NCBI RefSeq assembly: GCF_030295325.1 | Contig: NZ_AP027059.1 | Coordinates: forward strand, 1,918,637 to 1,982,636 | Length of the DNA stretch: 64,000 nt | DNA from: Haliovirga abyssi | GTDB lineage: Bacteria; Fusobacteriota; Fusobacteriia; Fusobacteriales; Haliovirgaceae | Direction of reading: 5' to 3' | Part shown: positions 17,467 to 48,130 of the stretch, in pieces | Layout: each line of letters opens with the position of its first letter | Position numbering within the stretch: position 1 is the first letter of the stretch | Notes under the pieces: model-generated | What the model was told of the DNA's origin: nothing | Databases searched by the model: none | Seen by the model: the letters and a program-made list of their open reading frames with translations, nothing else | Made by a program: the position numbers and the translations under genes

Positions 17467-19017
17467 CTAAACCACAACCTCAAACAGACTTTTCCCATCA
17501 ATCTCTACCTTTTTTTCCTCATACTTCTTCCCCTTATTAAAATTAAATATTACCAAATATCCCTTATCTTCTCCTTGCCCATCCAAATATCCAACTAACT
17601 GCTTTAACCCTTGTTTTTCCATCTCTTCTCCATGCCATATCTTTAACTCTATTATATATTTTATTTTATTATATACTACAACTATATCCATTCGATTATC
17701 TTGCCTTGTTTCAGGCTCTACAAAATAAAATCCTTCGCCATTTATTATTGGTTTCAGAAATGATAAAAACAGTAACCTTCCTTCTCGTTCTATAAATTTC
17801 TCATCTTTATCTCTATATTCGCTTTTCATAAATAATTGAAATTTTTCTAATATTTTTTCCATATCTAATATATTATTTTCTTTTATAAATTGATTCCTAT
17901 TAGGTGTTGTTTTTATATGTCTATTTACAATCATATCTCCTATCATATGATTGTATAATAACACTTCAAATATTTTATTACTTATTACAACTTTCCCTTG
18001 TTTTTCTATTAATATTCCATACATTACACCTATATCTATTACTTTATTTGTTGAAAAATATGGAACTTGTTCTCCTTTTAACATTAACACTCTTATTAAT
18101 TCATATAACTCCCTATTATTCTCTATATTCTTTATCACATCATCGAATAGTGTATTTTTCTCATTTAACAACTTATTTATTGCTTTTCTCAACCCTTCTT
18201 CTGTAAACTCTCTATTTAACTTCTCATCTATTATTTTACATAATTTACTCACTAAAAATGGATATCCTGATGTATAATCTCTTAATAAGTCTGACATCTT
18301 TTCTATATCCATTCCTGTTTTATTATCCTTCTCATAATCTATCAACATACTACTTATCTCTTCACTACTAAAACTCATATCTATATCAAAATCCGCTGCT
18401 ATATTCCACGGGCTATTATATATTCTCTCTTCATCTTTTCTATATCTTAATTTCAAATTTTTTATATCATGTACTCCTGCTAATATCACACTATGAAATG
18501 TATAATCTTCACCCCTATCTCTTCTTAAATATTTTTCTCGCAACATCCCTATAAAGTTCAAAAATAGTTTATTGTTACTACTTTTATCCACCTCATCTAT
18601 CATTAATGTCACTTTTTCGCCCACTTCTAATACTAAATCTGTTATAAACTCATCTAACTCTTTTATATTATTTATATTCCTATAATCTTCTATAAATTTT
18701 ACTAACTCCTTATATCCTTTTACCTTTAAAAATCTCTTTATCATTTGTACGAATGTATCTATAAATTTGTCTTCACTTTCAAAACTAGATTCTCCTACTC
18801 CTTCAAAACTTATTGATATTACCAAATATCCTTCTTTAATTATTTTCTTCTCTAATAAATACATTGTTGTTGTTTTCCCATATTGTCTGGGTCTATTTAT
18901 TATGAAATATTTTTCTTTTTCTATTAATTTTATTATTGTTTCATCTATTTTTTTACTTGTATCTACCATATAATGTTTAGCTGGTATACATATCCCTGTT
19001 ATATTAAATTCTTTCAT
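17467..19017 (-). CDS. AAA-like ATPase with C-terminal PD-(D/E)XK nuclease-like domain, paralogue 1
   Basis: 516 residues. Walker A is NRPRQYGKTTTMYLL (about 40-54) and Walker B VTLMIDEVDKSS (about 137-148). A helical middle contains SGYPFLVSKLCKIIDEK. The C-terminal NRMDIVVVYNKIKYIIELK has the D...E-x-K pattern. It is nearly identical to the next gene (19175-20725) from about residue 138 to the end but clearly different between Walker A and Walker B (about 80-135). The proteins are AAA-like/DUF-type of unknown function; a nucleic-acid cleaving or defence role is inference. Element A lies 60 bp upstream of the start. Confidence 0.82.
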   Translation of the reverse strand: MKEFNITGICIPAKHYMVDTSKKIDETIIKLIEKEKYFIINRPRQYGKTTTMYLLEKKIIKEGYLVISISFEGVGESSFESEDKFIDTFVQMIKRFLKVKGYKELVKFIEDYRNINNIKELDEFITDLVLEVGEKVTLMIDEVDKSSNNKLFLNFIGMLREKYLRRDRGEDYTFHSVILAGVHDIKNLKLRYRKDEERIYNSPWNIAADFDIDMSFSSEEISSMLIDYEKDNKTGMDIEKMSDLLRDYTSGYPFLVSKLCKIIDEKLNREFTEEGLRKAINKLLNEKNTLFDDVIKNIENNRELYELIRVLMLKGEQVPYFSTNKVIDIGVMYGILIEKQGKVVISNKIFEVLLYNHMIGDMIVNRHIKTTPNRNQFIKENNILDMEKILEKFQLFMKSEYRDKDEKFIEREGRLLFLSFLKPIINGEGFYFVEPETRQDNRMDIVVVYNKIKYIIELKIWHGEEMEKQGLKQLVGYLDGQGEDKGYLVIFNFNKGKKYEEKKVEIDGKSLFEVVV

Positions 19018-19076
19018 AAAATTAATACACCTCCATCTTTAATGTATAATGGAAAATTGTTAAGTATATCTCCTAA

Positions 19077-19175
19077 AGAACGTTTAAAAAATAATGTTCT
19101 CATATTTTGTTATAAAAACGCTTAAAACATTGCGTATTTTATAACAAAATGGGAATGTTATTTTTAAGCCATTCC
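19077..19175. mobile_element. Element A, 99 bp, TAA duplication, landing on a stop codon
   Basis: Begins AGAACGTTTAAAAAATAAT and ends AAGCCATTCC; TAA at 19074-19076 and 19176-19178. Its terminal base is the G of the TAG stop of the gene at 19175. The paralogue at 17467 ends with the same GTGGTTTAG without an insertion, giving a natural empty-site comparison. Confidence 0.92.
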
Positions 19176-20725
19176 TAAACCACAACCTCAAACAAAATCT
19201 TCCCATCAATCTCTACCATTTTTTTCTCATACTTCTTCCCTTTATTAAAATTAAATATTACCAAATACCCCTTATCTTCTCCTTGTCCTTCCAAATATCC
19301 ACATAACTGCTTTATCCCTTGTTTTTTCATCTCTTCTCCATGCCATATCTTTAACTCTATTATATATTTTATTTTATTATATACCACAACTATATCCATT
19401 CGATTATCTTGTCTTGTTTCTGGCTCTACAAAATAAAATCCTTCGCCATTTATTATTGGTTTCAAAAATGATAAAAACAGTAACCTTCCTTCTCGTTCTA
19501 TAAATTTCTCATCTTTATCTCTATATTCGCTTTTCATAAATAATTGGAATTTTTCTAATATTTTTTCCATATCTAATATATTATTTTCTTTTATAAATTG
19601 ATTTCTATTCGGTGTTGTTTTTATATGTCTATTTACAATCATATCTCCTATCATATGATTGTATAATAGTACTTCAAATATTTTATTACTTATTACAACT
19701 TTCCCTTGTTTTTCTATTAATATTCCATACATTAACCCTATATCTATTACTTTATTTGTTGAAAAATATGGAACTTGTTCTCCTTTTAACATTAATACTC
19801 TTATTAATTCATACAACTCTCTATTATTCTCTATATTCTTTATTACATCATCAAATAATGTATTCTTCTCATTTAACAACTTATTTATTGCTTTTCTCAA
19901 CCCTTCTTCTGTAAATTCTTTATTTAACTTCTCATCTATTATTTTACATAATTTACTTACTAAAAATGGATATCCTGATGTAAAATCTCTTAATAAGTCT
20001 GACATCTTTTCTATATCCATTCCTGTTTTATTATCCTTCTCATAATCTATCAACATACTACTTATCTCTTCACTACTAAAACTCATATCTATATCAAAAT
20101 CCGCTGCTATATTCCACGGACTATTATATATTCTCTCTTCATCTTTTCTATATCTCAATTTCAAATTCTTTATATCATGTACTCCTGCTAATATCACACT
20201 ATGAAATGTATAATCTTCACCTGCGTTTCTTCTTAAATATTTTTCTCGCAACATCCCTATAAAGTTCAAAAATAGTTTGTTATTACTGCTTTTATCTACC
20301 TCATCTATCATTAATACTACTTTTTTTTCTGCCTTTATTATAAATTTACTTATTAATTTTGATAAACTCTTTAAATTATCTACTTTTTTTAATTCTTTAT
20401 TTAAAAAATCACTCAATTCTTTCTCTTTATATTCTAATATATCTGCCATTAATTCTAATACTGTTTTTGATAACTCTTTCTCATTCTCAAAACTAGATTC
20501 TCCTATTCCTTCAAAACTTATTGATATTACTAAATATCCTTCTTTACTTATTTTCTTATTTAACAAATACATTGTTGTTGTTTTTCCATATTGTCTTGGC
20601 CTATTTATTGTGAAATATTCTCCTTCATCTATATATTTCAATATTACTTCATCTATTTTTTTACTTGTATCTACCATATAATTTCTTTCTGGTATACATA
20701 ATCCTGTTACATTAAATTTTTTCAT
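19175..20725 (-). CDS. AAA-like ATPase with C-terminal PD-(D/E)XK nuclease-like domain, paralogue 2
   Basis: 516 residues with the same length and layout as the gene at 17467. Walker A is NRPRQYGKTTTMYLL and Walker B VVLMIDEVDKSS. The same nuclease-like C-terminus (NRMDIVVVYNKIKYIIELK) ends in FEVVV. The segment between the two Walker motifs (ELSKTVLELMADILEYKEKE...) is not closely related to that of paralogue 1, although the flanks are almost identical, so the pair is a mosaic duplication. It is preceded by the TMTC-like gene with a 31-base gap. The stop codon abuts an element A copy. Confidence 0.82.
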   Translation of the reverse strand: MKKFNVTGLCIPERNYMVDTSKKIDEVILKYIDEGEYFTINRPRQYGKTTTMYLLNKKISKEGYLVISISFEGIGESSFENEKELSKTVLELMADILEYKEKELSDFLNKELKKVDNLKSLSKLISKFIIKAEKKVVLMIDEVDKSSNNKLFLNFIGMLREKYLRRNAGEDYTFHSVILAGVHDIKNLKLRYRKDEERIYNSPWNIAADFDIDMSFSSEEISSMLIDYEKDNKTGMDIEKMSDLLRDFTSGYPFLVSKLCKIIDEKLNKEFTEEGLRKAINKLLNEKNTLFDDVIKNIENNRELYELIRVLMLKGEQVPYFSTNKVIDIGLMYGILIEKQGKVVISNKIFEVLLYNHMIGDMIVNRHIKTTPNRNQFIKENNILDMEKILEKFQLFMKSEYRDKDEKFIEREGRLLFLSFLKPIINGEGFYFVEPETRQDNRMDIVVVYNKIKYIIELKIWHGEEMKKQGIKQLCGYLEGQGEDKGYLVIFNFNKGKKYEKKMVEIDGKILFEVVV

Positions 20726-20756
20726 AATTTATCTCCTCTTTTTTTATAGACAATTA

Positions 20757-39665: not shown

Positions 39666-39865
39666 GGAACGGCTTAAAAATAACCTTCCGATTTTGTTAT
39701 AAAATACGCAATGATTTAGGAACGCTTTAAAAACAACCTTATCTTTTTGTTTCAAAATACGCAACGATTCAAGCGTTTTTATAACAAAATATAAAAAAAT
39801 ACTTTTTAAATGTTCTTTAAGCGTTTTTATGACAAAATATAAGAAACTTATTTTTTAAACGTTCC
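39666..39865. mobile_element. Element A (outer copy) interrupted by a second element A; ATA duplication
   Basis: The outer copy begins GGAACGGCTTAAAAATAAC and ends AAACGTTCC, with ATA at 39663-39665 and 39866-39868. Removing the inner 98 bp and one TTA leaves exactly 99 bp, the standard length. The 388-bp gap 39626-40013 holds only this nest, a small hairpin at 39882 and A+T-rich DNA. Confidence 0.93.
39719..39816. mobile_element. Element A (inner copy) inserted in the centre of another element A; TTA duplication
   Basis: Begins GGAACGCTTTAAAAACAACC and ends TTTTAAATGTTCT; TTA at 39716-39718 and 39817-39819. Intact copies have a single TTTAAGCG at this central position, so the insertion point and duplication can be read directly. 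Same orientation as the outer copy. Confidence 0.93.
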
Positions 39866-42840: not shown

Positions 42841-43668
42841 TTATTTGTAATCTGGCAAAAAATATTTTTTTCCTGTCTTAGGATGAGTTAAAATTTCAAA
42901 ATTAATCTTATACACTTTTTTTATCAATTCTTTTGTTATAACTTCATCTATATCTCCATATTTTTCAACTATTCCATTATTTAACATAACAATTTTATCA
43001 CTATATTCTATTGCCATATTCAAATCATGCAACACAGCCACAATTGTAATAGATTTATCTTTTTTCACTTTATTTAATATTTTTAATATTTCAATTTGAT
43101 AATGAATATCTAAATGAGAAATTGGTTCATCCAAAAATATAACTTTACTCTCTTGTGCCAAAACTCTTGCTATTATTACTCTTTGTAACTCTCCACCACT
43201 TAATTCTGTTATATATTTATCTCTAAATTCCCACACTCCTGTTAATTTCATAACATCTTCTACTATTTTTTTATCATCAATAGATTCTTCTTGAAATCTT
43301 TTTAAATAAGGGTTTCTCCCAAACATAACTACATCTTCTACTGAAAAAAAAATATTTTGTTCTCCAAATTGTGGTACATATGATGCCATTTTTGCAAATT
43401 CAATATTGCTATAGCTTAACAGGTCTTTATTTAGATATAATATTTCATTTTTTTTTACATTTAATATTTTTAAAAATTTCTTTAATAATGTAGTTTTTCC
43501 AGAACCATTAGGCCCTATTATAGATATAAAATTTCCTTCTTTTATATCTAGGTTTATATTTTTTAATATTTCTGTATCTCCATATTTAAAATTTATATTA
43601 TTCCCTTCTATAATACTCTCTTTTCTATTTTTTTCTTTTTTAATATTATTTTTTATATTATTTTTCAT
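42841..43668 (-). CDS. btuD: ABC transporter ATP-binding protein, cobalamin/Fe3+-siderophore type
   Basis: 275 residues. Walker A GPNGSGKTTLLKKF (about 53-66), Q-loop SYVPQF, signature LSGGELQRVIIARVL (about 162-176), Walker B VIFLDEPISHLDIHYQ and H-loop VLHDLNM. The protein energises import through the BtuC permease encoded just upstream, whose stop overlaps this ATG by one base. Assignment to vitamin B12 rather than iron siderophore rests on the cobalamin riboswitch at the head of the gene group. The basic N-terminal 20 residues before IIEGNNINFKYGD are an unusual extension. Confidence 0.88.
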   Translation of the reverse strand: MKNNIKNNIKKEKNRKESIIEGNNINFKYGDTEILKNINLDIKEGNFISIIGPNGSGKTTLLKKFLKILNVKKNEILYLNKDLLSYSNIEFAKMASYVPQFGEQNIFFSVEDVVMFGRNPYLKRFQEESIDDKKIVEDVMKLTGVWEFRDKYITELSGGELQRVIIARVLAQESKVIFLDEPISHLDIHYQIEILKILNKVKKDKSITIVAVLHDLNMAIEYSDKIVMLNNGIVEKYGDIDEVITKELIKKVYKINFEILTHPKTGKKYFLPDYK

Positions 43669-44657
43669 TAAAATACCTTCTTTTTATTTTTATATAACAA
43701 ATATAGAAAATAAGGAACGCCTAATATAGAAGTTATTACACCAACTGGTATTTCTGAAGGCATTGCTAATACTCGTGCTATAATATCACATCCAATTGCA
43801 AAAATTCCACCAAATAAAAATGAAAATATAAGGCTATTTTTATAATTTTGTCCAATTAAAATTCTAACTATGTGTGGTACAATAAGCCCAATAAATCCTA
43901 TTATTCCTGTAATTGAAACTATTGCTGAAACTACTATTGCCGATGAAAATAGAAATATCTTTTTTACAAATTCCACATTAACACCAATTGTTTTAGCTTC
44001 TTCTTCTCCTAATTGTAATATATTTAGATCTCTCGTAAAATATATTGCTAATAACAGAAACAGTAATAATATAATTCCTAAAAAAATAATTTGTTCCCAA
44101 TATACAGTAGCAAAACTTCCCATTGTCCAATATATAATATCTGCTATTTTACTTCTATTAAAAATCATTATTAATGATATTACAGATGAGAGGAAAAAAC
44201 TAACTGCAACCCCAGCCAATAAAATAGCAATAGGTGGCAAAAAACTACCAACTTTTGCTATTTTATAAACTATTACTATTGTTAATATTGCTCCTAAAAA
44301 TGAAATCATATTTATTATACCCATACTCTTAAAAAAAACTATTCCTAGCACTGCTCCCAATGCTGCTCCTGCAGATACTCCTAATGTATATGGCTCTGCC
44401 ATTGGATTTTTTAATATTCCTTGATAGATACTTCCAACTATTGCTAATCCGCCGCCAGCTAATAAAGCTAAAACTGTACGAGGCAATCTCAATTTAAATA
44501 TTATAATTTCATATGCTTTTTTAGCATTGTTATTTCCTAAAATAACATTAAAAACATCATTTAATGGTATTGTCACACTTCCAAATATTATAGATAAAAT
44601 AAAAAATAAAATCAATAATATTATTGTAACAAAAAACAAAACTTCTCTATTTTTCAT
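43668..44657 (-). CDS. btuC: ABC transporter permease, BtuC/FecCD family
   Basis: 329 residues with about ten membrane helices. FecCD-family motifs: LRLPRTVLALLAGGGLAIVG (about 54-73), YQGILKNPMAEPYTLGVSAG (about 75-94), LNILQLGEEEAKTIGVNVEF and GIIGFIGLIVPHIVRILIGQ (about 252-271). It forms the inner-membrane channel with BtuD. Its ATG overlaps the stop of btuF by four bases, and its stop overlaps the btuD start. Substrate by context: cobalamin. Confidence 0.9.
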   Translation of the reverse strand: MKNREVLFFVTIILLILFFILSIIFGSVTIPLNDVFNVILGNNNAKKAYEIIIFKLRLPRTVLALLAGGGLAIVGSIYQGILKNPMAEPYTLGVSAGAALGAVLGIVFFKSMGIINMISFLGAILTIVIVYKIAKVGSFLPPIAILLAGVAVSFFLSSVISLIMIFNRSKIADIIYWTMGSFATVYWEQIIFLGIILLLFLLLAIYFTRDLNILQLGEEEAKTIGVNVEFVKKIFLFSSAIVVSAIVSITGIIGFIGLIVPHIVRILIGQNYKNSLIFSFLFGGIFAIGCDIIARVLAMPSEIPVGVITSILGVPYFLYLLYKNKKKVF

Positions 44658-45526
44658 TTTATAACTCCTGTATGAAATATTTTTGCTAATTGATAAATTC
44701 CATCTGCTAATCTTGCAGATTGTCTATTTAATAAATTATCATCTATTTCAAATATTTTATTATTTTTTACTGCTGATAACTCTTTATAGCCCTCTAATTT
44801 TTTAAAATCTTCTTTTGCATTATAATATTTTGATACAACTATTATTTCTGGATCTTTTTCTATTAATTTTTCTAAACTATATTTCCAACCTTTTATTTTA
44901 ACAATATTTTCTCCTCCTGCAAGAGTTATCATTTTATCTATATATGTTCCTGCCCCTGCTGAATAATCTCCATATTTACCATATCCCACCACATAATAAA
45001 CTGTTGGTTTTTTTAAATTCTTTACTTTTTCAGAAATTTTTGAAATTTTACTTTTCATATTATTTATTATCTTTTCTGATAATTTATCTTTATTTAAAAC
45101 TTCTCCTAACTCTCTTATCATTTTATAAGCCCCATTTATAGATGAGTCATTATAAAAAGTCACAACTGTTATTCCCACTGACTCTAATTTATCTACAAAT
45201 TTTTTCTGAACATGAACTGATGCTAATACTACGTCTGGATTAATCTCAATTATTTTTTCTAAATTTGGATTTAATAAATCTCCAACTGCTTCTATTTTTT
45301 TTACCTCTTTTGGATAATCTCCATATATTGTTCTTCCTACTAATTTCTCACCGGATTTTAATGCAAATATTGTTTCTGTAATAGCTGGACTTAATGACAC
45401 TATTCTATTTGGCTCTTTATTTATAGTAATATCTCTTCCATAAGAATCATGTATTTTTATTGGATAATTGCTTCCAAATGTTAGCATTACTATGAATAAC
45501 ATAAATATTAATATAATTTTTTTCAT
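44654..45526 (-). CDS. btuF: Periplasmic substrate-binding protein, BtuF-like
   Basis: About 290 residues from the ATG at 45526. The in-frame ATG four codons earlier lies in the ribosome binding site GGAGG, so it is rejected. A signal peptide (KKIILIFMLFIVMLTFGSNY) is followed by the BtuF/FhuD fold: EPNRIVSLSPAITETIFALK, NPDVVLASVHVQKKFVDKLE and a late AGGENIVKIKG. It captures the ligand in the periplasm and delivers it to BtuCD. About 130 bp after btuB; same B12-controlled unit. Confidence 0.9.
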   Translation of the reverse strand: MKKIILIFMLFIVMLTFGSNYPIKIHDSYGRDITINKEPNRIVSLSPAITETIFALKSGEKLVGRTIYGDYPKEVKKIEAVGDLLNPNLEKIIEINPDVVLASVHVQKKFVDKLESVGITVVTFYNDSSINGAYKMIRELGEVLNKDKLSEKIINNMKSKISKISEKVKNLKKPTVYYVVGYGKYGDYSAGAGTYIDKMITLAGGENIVKIKGWKYSLEKLIEKDPEIIVVSKYYNAKEDFKKLEGYKELSAVKNNKIFEIDDNLLNRQSARLADGIYQLAKIFHTGVIK

Positions 45527-45619
45527 TACTTCCTCCATTAAAATTTCGAATTCTCATTTTATATAAATCAATCCCTCATCTAAAAAACTATATTTCGCTT
45601 TTGGCAAATTATGAGGACA

Positions 45620-45656: not shown

Positions 45657-47588
45657 TTAAAACTTATATCTTACACCTAAATCAAAATTCCTTTCCGCTG
45701 ATGGATAGTATGCCATTTTATCAGTTGCTCCATAAAGATATGGGCTATATACTATTGTGCTTGAATATTTTTCATTTAAAATATTTTTTATTCCACCAAA
45801 TATTTCTATATTATTTATTTTATAACTAGAATTAATATCCAATGTTTTATAACTTTTTACTTTATCGCCTTTATTCTCCAAATCATTTATTGCATATCTT
45901 TTCCCAATATAATTTAAATTTCCTCTGATTTTTAAATTTTCAACTGGATTTATAGTTAATATTAAATTAAATTTATGCTGTGGAACTCCTGGCACTTCTT
46001 TACCTTTATATGCTCCATCTGTAATTTCACTTTTTATATATGAATAACCCTCTTTTAATGTAAATATAGAAAAATCTTCTTCTAATATTATATCTGCTCC
46101 AGTTCTCAAAGTTTTTCCAGACATATTTTCATTTTTATAGCTAGAACTATTATAATATATTTCATCCTTCATTTCTGTTTTATATGCATTTATATCTACA
46201 TATAATATATCCACAATAAAATCTGTTACTCCTAATTGTAAATTATTGCCAGATTGAGGTTTCAAATCTTTCATATATTTCCCAAAAGTAAGATATTCAT
46301 CTGTTAATGGTGTCCTGTAATTTGTGTTATACTCTAAATATAATTTTCCAGTAGGTCTATAATTAAAATTCATCCCTGCTGTATATAAAGTTTTATAATA
46401 CGCTTTTTCATCTGCTTTTTTACTATCGTTATAATATTTTAGACTGTTTTTTTCTCTTCTTAACCCACCTTCAATTTTTAATAAATCTGTTAATTTTAAA
46501 TCATTTAAAATATAAGCTCCTATTTTTTCTTTATTAACTTTGTTTAAATCTGCTCTGTTTTCTCCAAATTTATAATCCACACCATAAGAACTTTTAAGGT
46601 TACCTATAATATATCTAAATTTTAAATTATCTGCTATTTCTTTAGAATCTGTTGTTGATTTTGGAGTTCCCCAACTAATCATATCTGTTATCAATTTTTT
46701 TTCTACATATTTAGAATTATTTTCAAATTTAATATTGCCTATTTCAAATTTTTCCCATAATCCATATTCTTTTGTTTTAGTTGCTCCATTATCTTTATTT
46801 TCAGTTCTTCCAACTGGACTTCCTGAATAATCCGTATATAGAGCATCTGCTCTATCTTTTTCCATTTCATCCTTTGTAAGAGAACCTGGCATTCCATAAC
46901 TATCTTTATAATTTTTATAACTCATCCCTATTTTATCCATTATAGATAAATTTAATTTAAAATTCTCCATATTAAATTTAGAGTTTTTTCTATATCCATC
47001 CAAATCTTTTTTATTATATCCTAAATTAATCGACATAATCTCATTTTTATATCCAATTTTACCAGAATATTTTTTTGCATTATAACTTCCCACATTTAAT
47101 CCTATATCTCCACTTACACCATTTTTTTTACTTTTTTTTGTAATTATATTTATTACTCCTGATACAGCTTGGTCTCCATAAAGTACCCCACCACTTCCAG
47201 GTAACACTTCTATTCTTTCTACGTTATCTAATAAAACGCTATTTATATCTGCTCCAGACATATCTATAGAATTTATACTAATTCCATCAACTAATATTAA
47301 TAAATTCTTTTTTGCATTATCTCCTTGACCATGCAAATCAACTGTAACTGTTTTCCCACTACCTGTATAATCTGAAATAACAATTCCACTTATATCTTTT
47401 AAAACTTCTGATACTGTAGATGCTCCGCTTTCTTTTATTTCTGATTCTGTAATGATTTTAATATCTTTAGAACTATTTGATATAGTATTCTCAAATCTTT
47501 CACCAGTTACTGCAATATCACTTAATTTATACTCTTCAGCAAACACCATAATACTTAAAATAACAAAAACTAATAGTACTCTCTTCAA
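45657..47588 (-). CDS. btuB: TonB-dependent outer-membrane receptor, BtuB-like
   Basis: About 643 residues from a TTG start at 47588, which is preceded by AGGAGG at proper spacing; the earlier TTG at 47606 lies upstream of that site. The signal peptide ends ...LSIMVFA, then EEYKLSDIAVTGERF, a short TonB-box-like region. The plug domain (KIITESEIKESGASTVSEVL, then GDQAVSGVINIITKKSK) is followed by a beta-barrel ending in VRYKF with a terminal Phe. It takes up corrinoid across the outer membrane using TonB energy. Directly behind a cobalamin riboswitch, which decides the substrate call. Confidence 0.9.
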   Translation of the reverse strand: MKRVLLVFVILSIMVFAEEYKLSDIAVTGERFENTISNSSKDIKIITESEIKESGASTVSEVLKDISGIVISDYTGSGKTVTVDLHGQGDNAKKNLLILVDGISINSIDMSGADINSVLLDNVERIEVLPGSGGVLYGDQAVSGVINIITKKSKKNGVSGDIGLNVGSYNAKKYSGKIGYKNEIMSINLGYNKKDLDGYRKNSKFNMENFKLNLSIMDKIGMSYKNYKDSYGMPGSLTKDEMEKDRADALYTDYSGSPVGRTENKDNGATKTKEYGLWEKFEIGNIKFENNSKYVEKKLITDMISWGTPKSTTDSKEIADNLKFRYIIGNLKSSYGVDYKFGENRADLNKVNKEKIGAYILNDLKLTDLLKIEGGLRREKNSLKYYNDSKKADEKAYYKTLYTAGMNFNYRPTGKLYLEYNTNYRTPLTDEYLTFGKYMKDLKPQSGNNLQLGVTDFIVDILYVDINAYKTEMKDEIYYNSSSYKNENMSGKTLRTGADIILEEDFSIFTLKEGYSYIKSEITDGAYKGKEVPGVPQHKFNLILTINPVENLKIRGNLNYIGKRYAINDLENKGDKVKSYKTLDINSSYKINNIEIFGGIKNILNEKYSSTIVYSPYLYGATDKMAYYPSAERNFDLGVRYKF

Positions 47589-47817
47589 TTTAAAATTCCT
47601 CCTCAATTTTTATATAATCTTAGTTTCAGATGAACATTTTAAAAATAATATTATTATATTCTAAAATAGAATACATAAATTACTTTTAAACTACTCTTAA
47701 AAAAAATCATATAGTTATTAAGGAGGAATATTTCTTTTAGTCATATATATGACCTCCCCTCCGAAGGATTCCTGTGGAACAGCTTAAAAATTACATTTTC
47801 AAACTATCCCTATCTTT

Positions 47818-48073
47818 TTATCAGGTAAGTCTCCTGGCTTAGCTTCATTCTACTAACCTCCTTCCCGGATTTTATCCAGTGGTATTAGGCTTTCGTCTGC
47901 TTTACAGTAGCGGGGGCTGCTTTGGATTTACACCAAATTCCTCGTTATGCTTATTATTAGGAATGACTTAAAAACAACATTATCATTTTGTTTATAAAAC
48001 AAGCACTGTTTCTAGCTTTCTTATAAACAGATATTAAAACATTATTTTTTAAACATTCCTTAGCACCTGATAA
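47818..48073 (-). promoter_or_regulatory. Cobalamin (B12) riboswitch carrying a mobile element in its P2 loop
   Basis: P1 is perfect: TTATCAGGT (48073-48065) with ACCTGATAA (47826-47818). The conserved core CCCCCGCTACTG is at 47916-47905, the B12 box AGCCAGGAGACTTACCTG at 47839-47822, and GGTGTAAATCC lies between P2 and the core. Without the element the P2 hairpin would be GTGCT-AATAATA-AGCAT. A 100-bp element A occupies that loop. Downstream, AGGAAT/ATTCCT can form a long hairpin (about 47734-47776) before a T-run, a possible transcription terminator controlling btuB. Effect of the insertion on ligand response unknown. Confidence 0.92.
47960..48059. mobile_element. Element A, 100 bp, TTA duplication, inside the B12 riboswitch P2 loop
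   Basis: Begins GGAATGACTTAAAAACAACA and ends AAACATTCC; TTA at 47957-47959 and 48060-48062. The copy is somewhat diverged in the centre, so it may be older than others. Confidence 0.92.
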
Positions 48074-48130
48074 CTTATTATATCATAATATAAAAAAAGA
48101 ATCTATGGATTAGTATTGTAAAAAAAAAAT

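Follow-up and report, generated by a model that had tools for sequence, protein, structure and literature searches.

A palindromic MITE in the P2 loop of a cobalamin riboswitch upstream of a btu operon in Haliovirga abyssi

Mobile elements are known from the helices of structured RNAs, in the form of rRNA intervening sequences and the repeats in helix P12 of cyanobacterial rnpB. The locus described here resembles those systems in that a peripheral helix accommodates a repeat that folds on itself, and departs from them in that the RNA concerned senses a ligand and regulates in cis. Among small bacterial repeats, RUP, BOX, and the Rickettsia palindromic elements are treated as MITEs or small palindromic repeats in passages of two reviews (PMC10969869, PMC2229807), and the properties given there, namely a length below 200 bp, a high A+T content, terminal inverted repeats, target duplications, a noncoding sequence, and multiple copies, are shared by the present element. 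It differs from RUP, BOX, and the Rickettsia elements in that, within its order, the family was found in this genome only and has GGAAYG ends with a TNA-type duplication. One of the reviews raises the possibility that MITEs form riboswitch-like structures, and the passages concerned do not mention insertion inside a known riboswitch (PMC10969869). A literature search, partial in coverage, found no earlier MITE inside a riboswitch aptamer. The riboswitch is like others of Rfam family RF00174 in its core, B12 box, L5 sequence CCCCCGC, P1, and downstream btu genes. It is unlike those of related genomes in that its P2 region, insert included, is 116 nt long, compared to about 8 to 24 nt in clean P1-anchored parses of the relatives, and in that Rfam misplaces P1 and P2. 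A further parallel is the B12 riboswitch of Mycobacterium tuberculosis ppe2, which has an essential upstream open reading frame (uORF) (PMC11260477). Here too the riboswitch is followed by a short open reading frame (ORF) that may be coupled to the downstream gene, although the coupling is read from an anti-Shine-Dalgarno/Shine-Dalgarno hairpin and the class and genes differ. Neither the riboswitch nor the MITE is unusual in itself; together they make a clean, uncommon case that fits known biology.

We propose, with a probability of roughly 0.8, that a cobalamin riboswitch of the translational type, controlling a btuBFCD-like operon, received a MITE in its P2 loop, and that the switch still operates with the insertion nearly neutral. 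A nonautonomous palindromic MITE of 99 to 100 bp would have transposed into the TTA-containing P2 loop, from which it would now protrude as an additional hairpin on the edge of the aptamer. The ligand would accordingly still be bound, and the L5-L13 kissing loop would still mask the ribosome-binding region downstream. Tolerance of the element would follow from its self-complementarity and from its landing in a short P2 loop. The features are collected in Table 1, in coordinates of the window, the whole 64-kb stretch of DNA that was analyzed.

Table 1. Coordinates, strand, and supporting evidence for features of the riboswitch, the inserted element, and the downstream operon
Feature	Position	Strand	Evidence
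Cobalamin riboswitch aptamer, P1 to P1, inserted element included	47818-48073	-	RF00174, 95.2 bits; conserved columns
P1 5' arm, UUAUCAGGU	48065-48073	-	Nine Watson-Crick pairs with 47818-47826
P1 3' arm, ACCUGAUAA	47818-47826	-	Nine Watson-Crick pairs with 48065-48073
P2 5' base, GCU	48062-48064	-	Matches GCU...AGC flanks of paralogous riboswitch L001
P2 3' base, AGC	47949-47951	-	Matches paralogous riboswitch L001
MITE copy, 100 bp, imperfect palindrome, in P2 loop	47960-48059	-	nhmmer, BLAST, hairpin z score
Target-site duplication TTA, one side	48060-48062	.	Flank comparison
Target-site duplication TTA, other side	47957-47959	.	Flank comparison
B12 box, GCCAGGAGAC	47829-47838	-	Sequence; conserved in alignment of relatives
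Probable extended -10 promoter element, TGATATAAT	48077-48085	-	Sequence comparison with second riboswitch; inference
Shine-Dalgarno GGAGGGGAGG (47762-47753) and eight-codon leader ORF MTKRNIPP (47744-47718); probable expression platform	47718-47762	-	Sequence; inference
135-nt hairpin; arms AUUCCUCC and btuB Shine-Dalgarno GGAGGAAU	47595-47729	-	Folding energy, pairing
btuB-like TonB-dependent receptor, probable TTG start at 47588	45657-47588	-	Plug, TonB_dep_Rec
btuF-, btuC-, btuD-like ABC importer genes	42841-45538	-	Peripla_BP_2, FecCD; ATPase read from sequence

The aptamer lies 5' of the btuB-btuF-btuC-btuD-like operon on the minus strand, and RF00174 matches it at 47986-47807 (-) with 95.2 bits and an E value of 1.9e-22, against a gathering threshold of 31.5. 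The Rfam alignment begins at 47986, which is within the inserted element, and P1 as drawn there has 8 of 12 pairs, is interrupted, and has four pairs flagged as nonstandard. The true P1 consists of nine contiguous Watson-Crick pairs with both arms outside the insert; its predicted pair probabilities are 0.72 to 0.91, and it covaries in an alignment of 25 related riboswitches. The Rfam placement of P1 and P2 is an artefact of the insert. Presumably the model picks the wrong P1 arm because a 100-nt insert is costly to skip and the P1 sequence is little conserved. Directly before P1, the string TGATATAAT is identical in both riboswitches of the genome and is a probable extended -10 promoter element.

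The inserted element belongs to a family with many copies in the genome. BLAST with the element gave dozens of genomic copies at 80 to 86% identity, and the pattern of the element ends gave 364 matches in the genome versus 9 for the reversed pattern, which implies roughly 180 copies; this number is based on the searches and on about 45 copies examined individually. The canonical length is 99 bp, the exact spacing of 32 of 47 candidate end pairs, and 3-bp duplications, mostly TTA or TAA, flank 35 of the 47, compared to 12.5 after shuffling. The family is characterized by the end sequence GGAAYG and the TNA-type 3-bp target duplication. The riboswitch copy ends in GGAATG/CATTCC and was found by nhmmer at an E value of 4.3e-16 with a profile built from 33 other copies, the riboswitch copy being excluded. 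No ORF of at least 80 amino acids overlaps it, and at about 99 bp it has no coding capacity. A search for an autonomous partner transposase with two Pfam families, PF01609 and PF13586, gave no match in the genome. Searches of the 95 other genomes of the order gave no match at an E value of 1e-6 or lower, leaving this genome as the sole carrier of the family among the 96.

Within the window there are at least 13 family copies, a higher density than the roughly one per 15 kb seen across the genome, and some of these are nested or tandem (39666-39865). A weak match to the left end of the element at 47776-47800 (E value of 0.003 within the leader and 0.73 window-wide) is perhaps a solo-end relic between the aptamer and the leader ORF. 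Elsewhere, locus L054 carries a tandem array of 95- to 99-bp family elements at 1690-2321 (2027-2121, 2125-2223, and 2227-2321) that starts at the 3' end of the RNase P RNA gene, with another copy before the gene at 1501-1599. An Rfam scan of 34 further element loci found none with the element inside another recognized RNA, and the other copies examined are at unrelated sites whose surroundings have no RF00174 match. The chance that about 180 copies with AT-rich 3-mer targets in a 2.7-Mb genome would enter the tolerant loop of some regulatory RNA is appreciable, by a rough estimate 0.1 to 0.5, and one riboswitch insertion is about the chance expectation for 180 AT-targeting insertions.

The second riboswitch of the genome (L001) lies before metE, and its P2 is empty of the element, reading GGTGCTGTAAAAAGCATAAC versus GGTGCTAATAATAAGCATAAC for the excised riboswitch sequence of the window. 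Excision of one element copy and one duplication restores a 13-nt P2; the flanks so joined, GGTGCTAATAATAAGCATAACGAGGAAT, align with GGTGCTGTAAAAAGCATAACAAGGAAT of the second riboswitch, and 121 of 159 aligned positions are identical between the excised sequence and this paralog. By a simpler pattern, P2 is short, at most 21 nt, in 108 of 110 related riboswitches. In these comparisons the nearest genomes are related at the level of the order, and the empty site is a paralogous one. The excised sequence was also aligned to the 25 relatives together with the paralog, and the 49 most conserved aptamer positions are all intact, 36 of them columns without variation among the relatives and 13 of them near-invariant.

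The original prediction, that a mobile element sits in the P2 loop of a cobalamin riboswitch which has kept its core, B12 box, and P1, agrees with these results: the element by its ends, TTA flanks, and profile match, and the aptamer by the 49 conserved columns and the nine-pair P1. Its coordinates were correct, and the span that it gave for excision, 47960-48062, takes in the element together with one of the two duplications. A conserved long P2 in relatives, which would have spoken against it, was looked for and is absent from them. A covariance-model alignment that sets P1 and P2 elsewhere was the other result that it held to be damaging; Rfam does place them differently, but with the fewer, interrupted pairs of an artefact. 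The accompanying statement that this riboswitch class tolerates variation at P2 survives in part, since the P2 of the relatives is short and this case alone shows tolerance of a very long one.

The copy in the riboswitch is old, to judge from its divergence. It differs at 17 or more positions from each of the full copies with which it was compared, where most other copies are 1 to 9 differences from their nearest neighbor, and it carries 9 private states, each found in fewer than two of the compared copies. With 8 to 14% neutral change, all 49 sites would stay unaltered with a probability of 0.017 to 0.0006. Because the 49 conserved positions are intact beside an old, diverged copy, it is likely that the aptamer has been under selection ever since the insertion. 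This argument from age assumes that the divergence arose after insertion, and it would not hold for a copy that had diverged before it arrived. The riboswitch probably still works.

Thermodynamic folding describes what the insert may do to the RNA, in terms of secondary structure without pseudoknots or ligand. The inserted RNA folds on itself at -25.2 kcal/mol, with a z score of -5.2 versus shuffles, and is predicted to pair with essentially none of the remaining RNA (about 1e-5 per base), which bears out the expectation that the element is self-folding. The further expectation that it simply lengthens P2 is correct insofar as the insert is a self-contained hairpin in P2, and less well supported as to geometry. 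Between the element stem and the old P2 the prediction puts an asymmetric bulge of 0-1 by 7 nt. Because these seven nucleotides on one side set the base of P2 apart from the element, the three pairs there are predicted to weaken from about 0.88 to 0.19 with the insert, for a transcript ending just after P1. The arm is therefore attached more loosely than a simple lengthening implies, and the geometry of P2 may be damaged. An altered folding speed or ligand response, which the original prediction also raised, would be a conceivable effect; the predicted probability of P1 is little changed by the insert at seven transcript lengths.

These observations bear on other readings of the locus. That the insertion crippled the riboswitch, so that the btu operon would now lack regulation or stay at a constantly low level while the core has yet to decay, is unlikely, even with the predicted weakening of the basal P2 pairs and an RF00174 score of 95.2 against 109.2 for the paralog; the conserved positions are intact beside an old, diverged copy, and the lower score plausibly comes from the mis-set P1 and P2 in the Rfam alignment. 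The reverse case, in which the insert was co-opted and the lengthened P2 arm adjusts how the riboswitch folds, how tightly it binds its ligand, or how stable the RNA is, appears highly improbable. It draws on the hairpin of the riboswitch copy, which is more stable than when the same substitutions are randomly placed (1.3 to 1.6% of simulations reach it). This signal falls to 9.6% with copy L033 as ancestor, several other family copies show equal or stronger hairpin preservation, and P1 is predicted to form almost equally well with or without the insert. Since several other copies show it, hairpin preservation is a property of the family and not of the site, and site-specific selection on the inserted hairpin was rejected by this control. 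We regard it as very doubtful that the transposon hairpin has become a working part, with folding order or ligand response changed relative to the unmodified metE riboswitch; if so, a mobile element would have retuned one of two sister riboswitches in the same cell.

That there was no insertion at all, the long P2 being ancestral and the resemblance to the repeat being due to convergence or to an origin of the family at this locus, is barely credible. In its favor, the Rfam model does not put P1 at the arms 48073-48065 and 47826-47818. Against it are the target duplication, the matching ends and length, the empty paralog and short P2 of the relatives, and the genome-wide copies, which carry their own duplications and lie at unrelated sites without RF00174. 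Nature has here carried out an insertion experiment on a structured RNA. The genome preserves the element, its target duplication, the intact core, and a sister copy that is still empty, and the tolerance of P2 can therefore be read directly. The case indicates that a riboswitch can survive the entry of a self-complementary mobile repeat, and that covariance models misplace helices after such insertions.

The arrangement of leader ORF, with its strong Shine-Dalgarno sequence, and hairpin downstream of the aptamer may hold more regulatory interest than the insertion. The 135-nt hairpin of the btuB leader has a predicted energy of -40.9 kcal/mol with a z score of -7.2, and its arms, the last codons of MTKRNIPP (AUUCCUCC) and the btuB Shine-Dalgarno sequence (GGAGGAAU), are predicted to be paired at 0.74 to 1.0. 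This suggests a riboswitch-uORF-btuB coupling, in which the riboswitch would control translation of the leader, which would then open btuB. The 135-nt palindrome was considered as a repeat family and rejected, being single copy. The btuB-like protein scores 143 bits with TIGR01779 (TonB-B12), below the cutoff of 599.7, and the BtuC models give 252 and 213 bits, both also below cutoff. Judged by gene content, with btu genes at this riboswitch and metE at the other, this is a classic regulon.

Inserts of another kind are seen in the cobalamin riboswitches of two related species, G002 and G024 (L139:301-539 [-] and L140:301-539 [+]), where an AT-rich hairpin of about 64 nt occupies a different peripheral loop, after CCACUG; a search rejected this insert as a repeat family. 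Another stretch of the window, 17467-20727, contains two long direct repeats, of 300 nt (94%) and 280 nt (84%), each with a spacing of 1708 nt, which suggest a local duplication.
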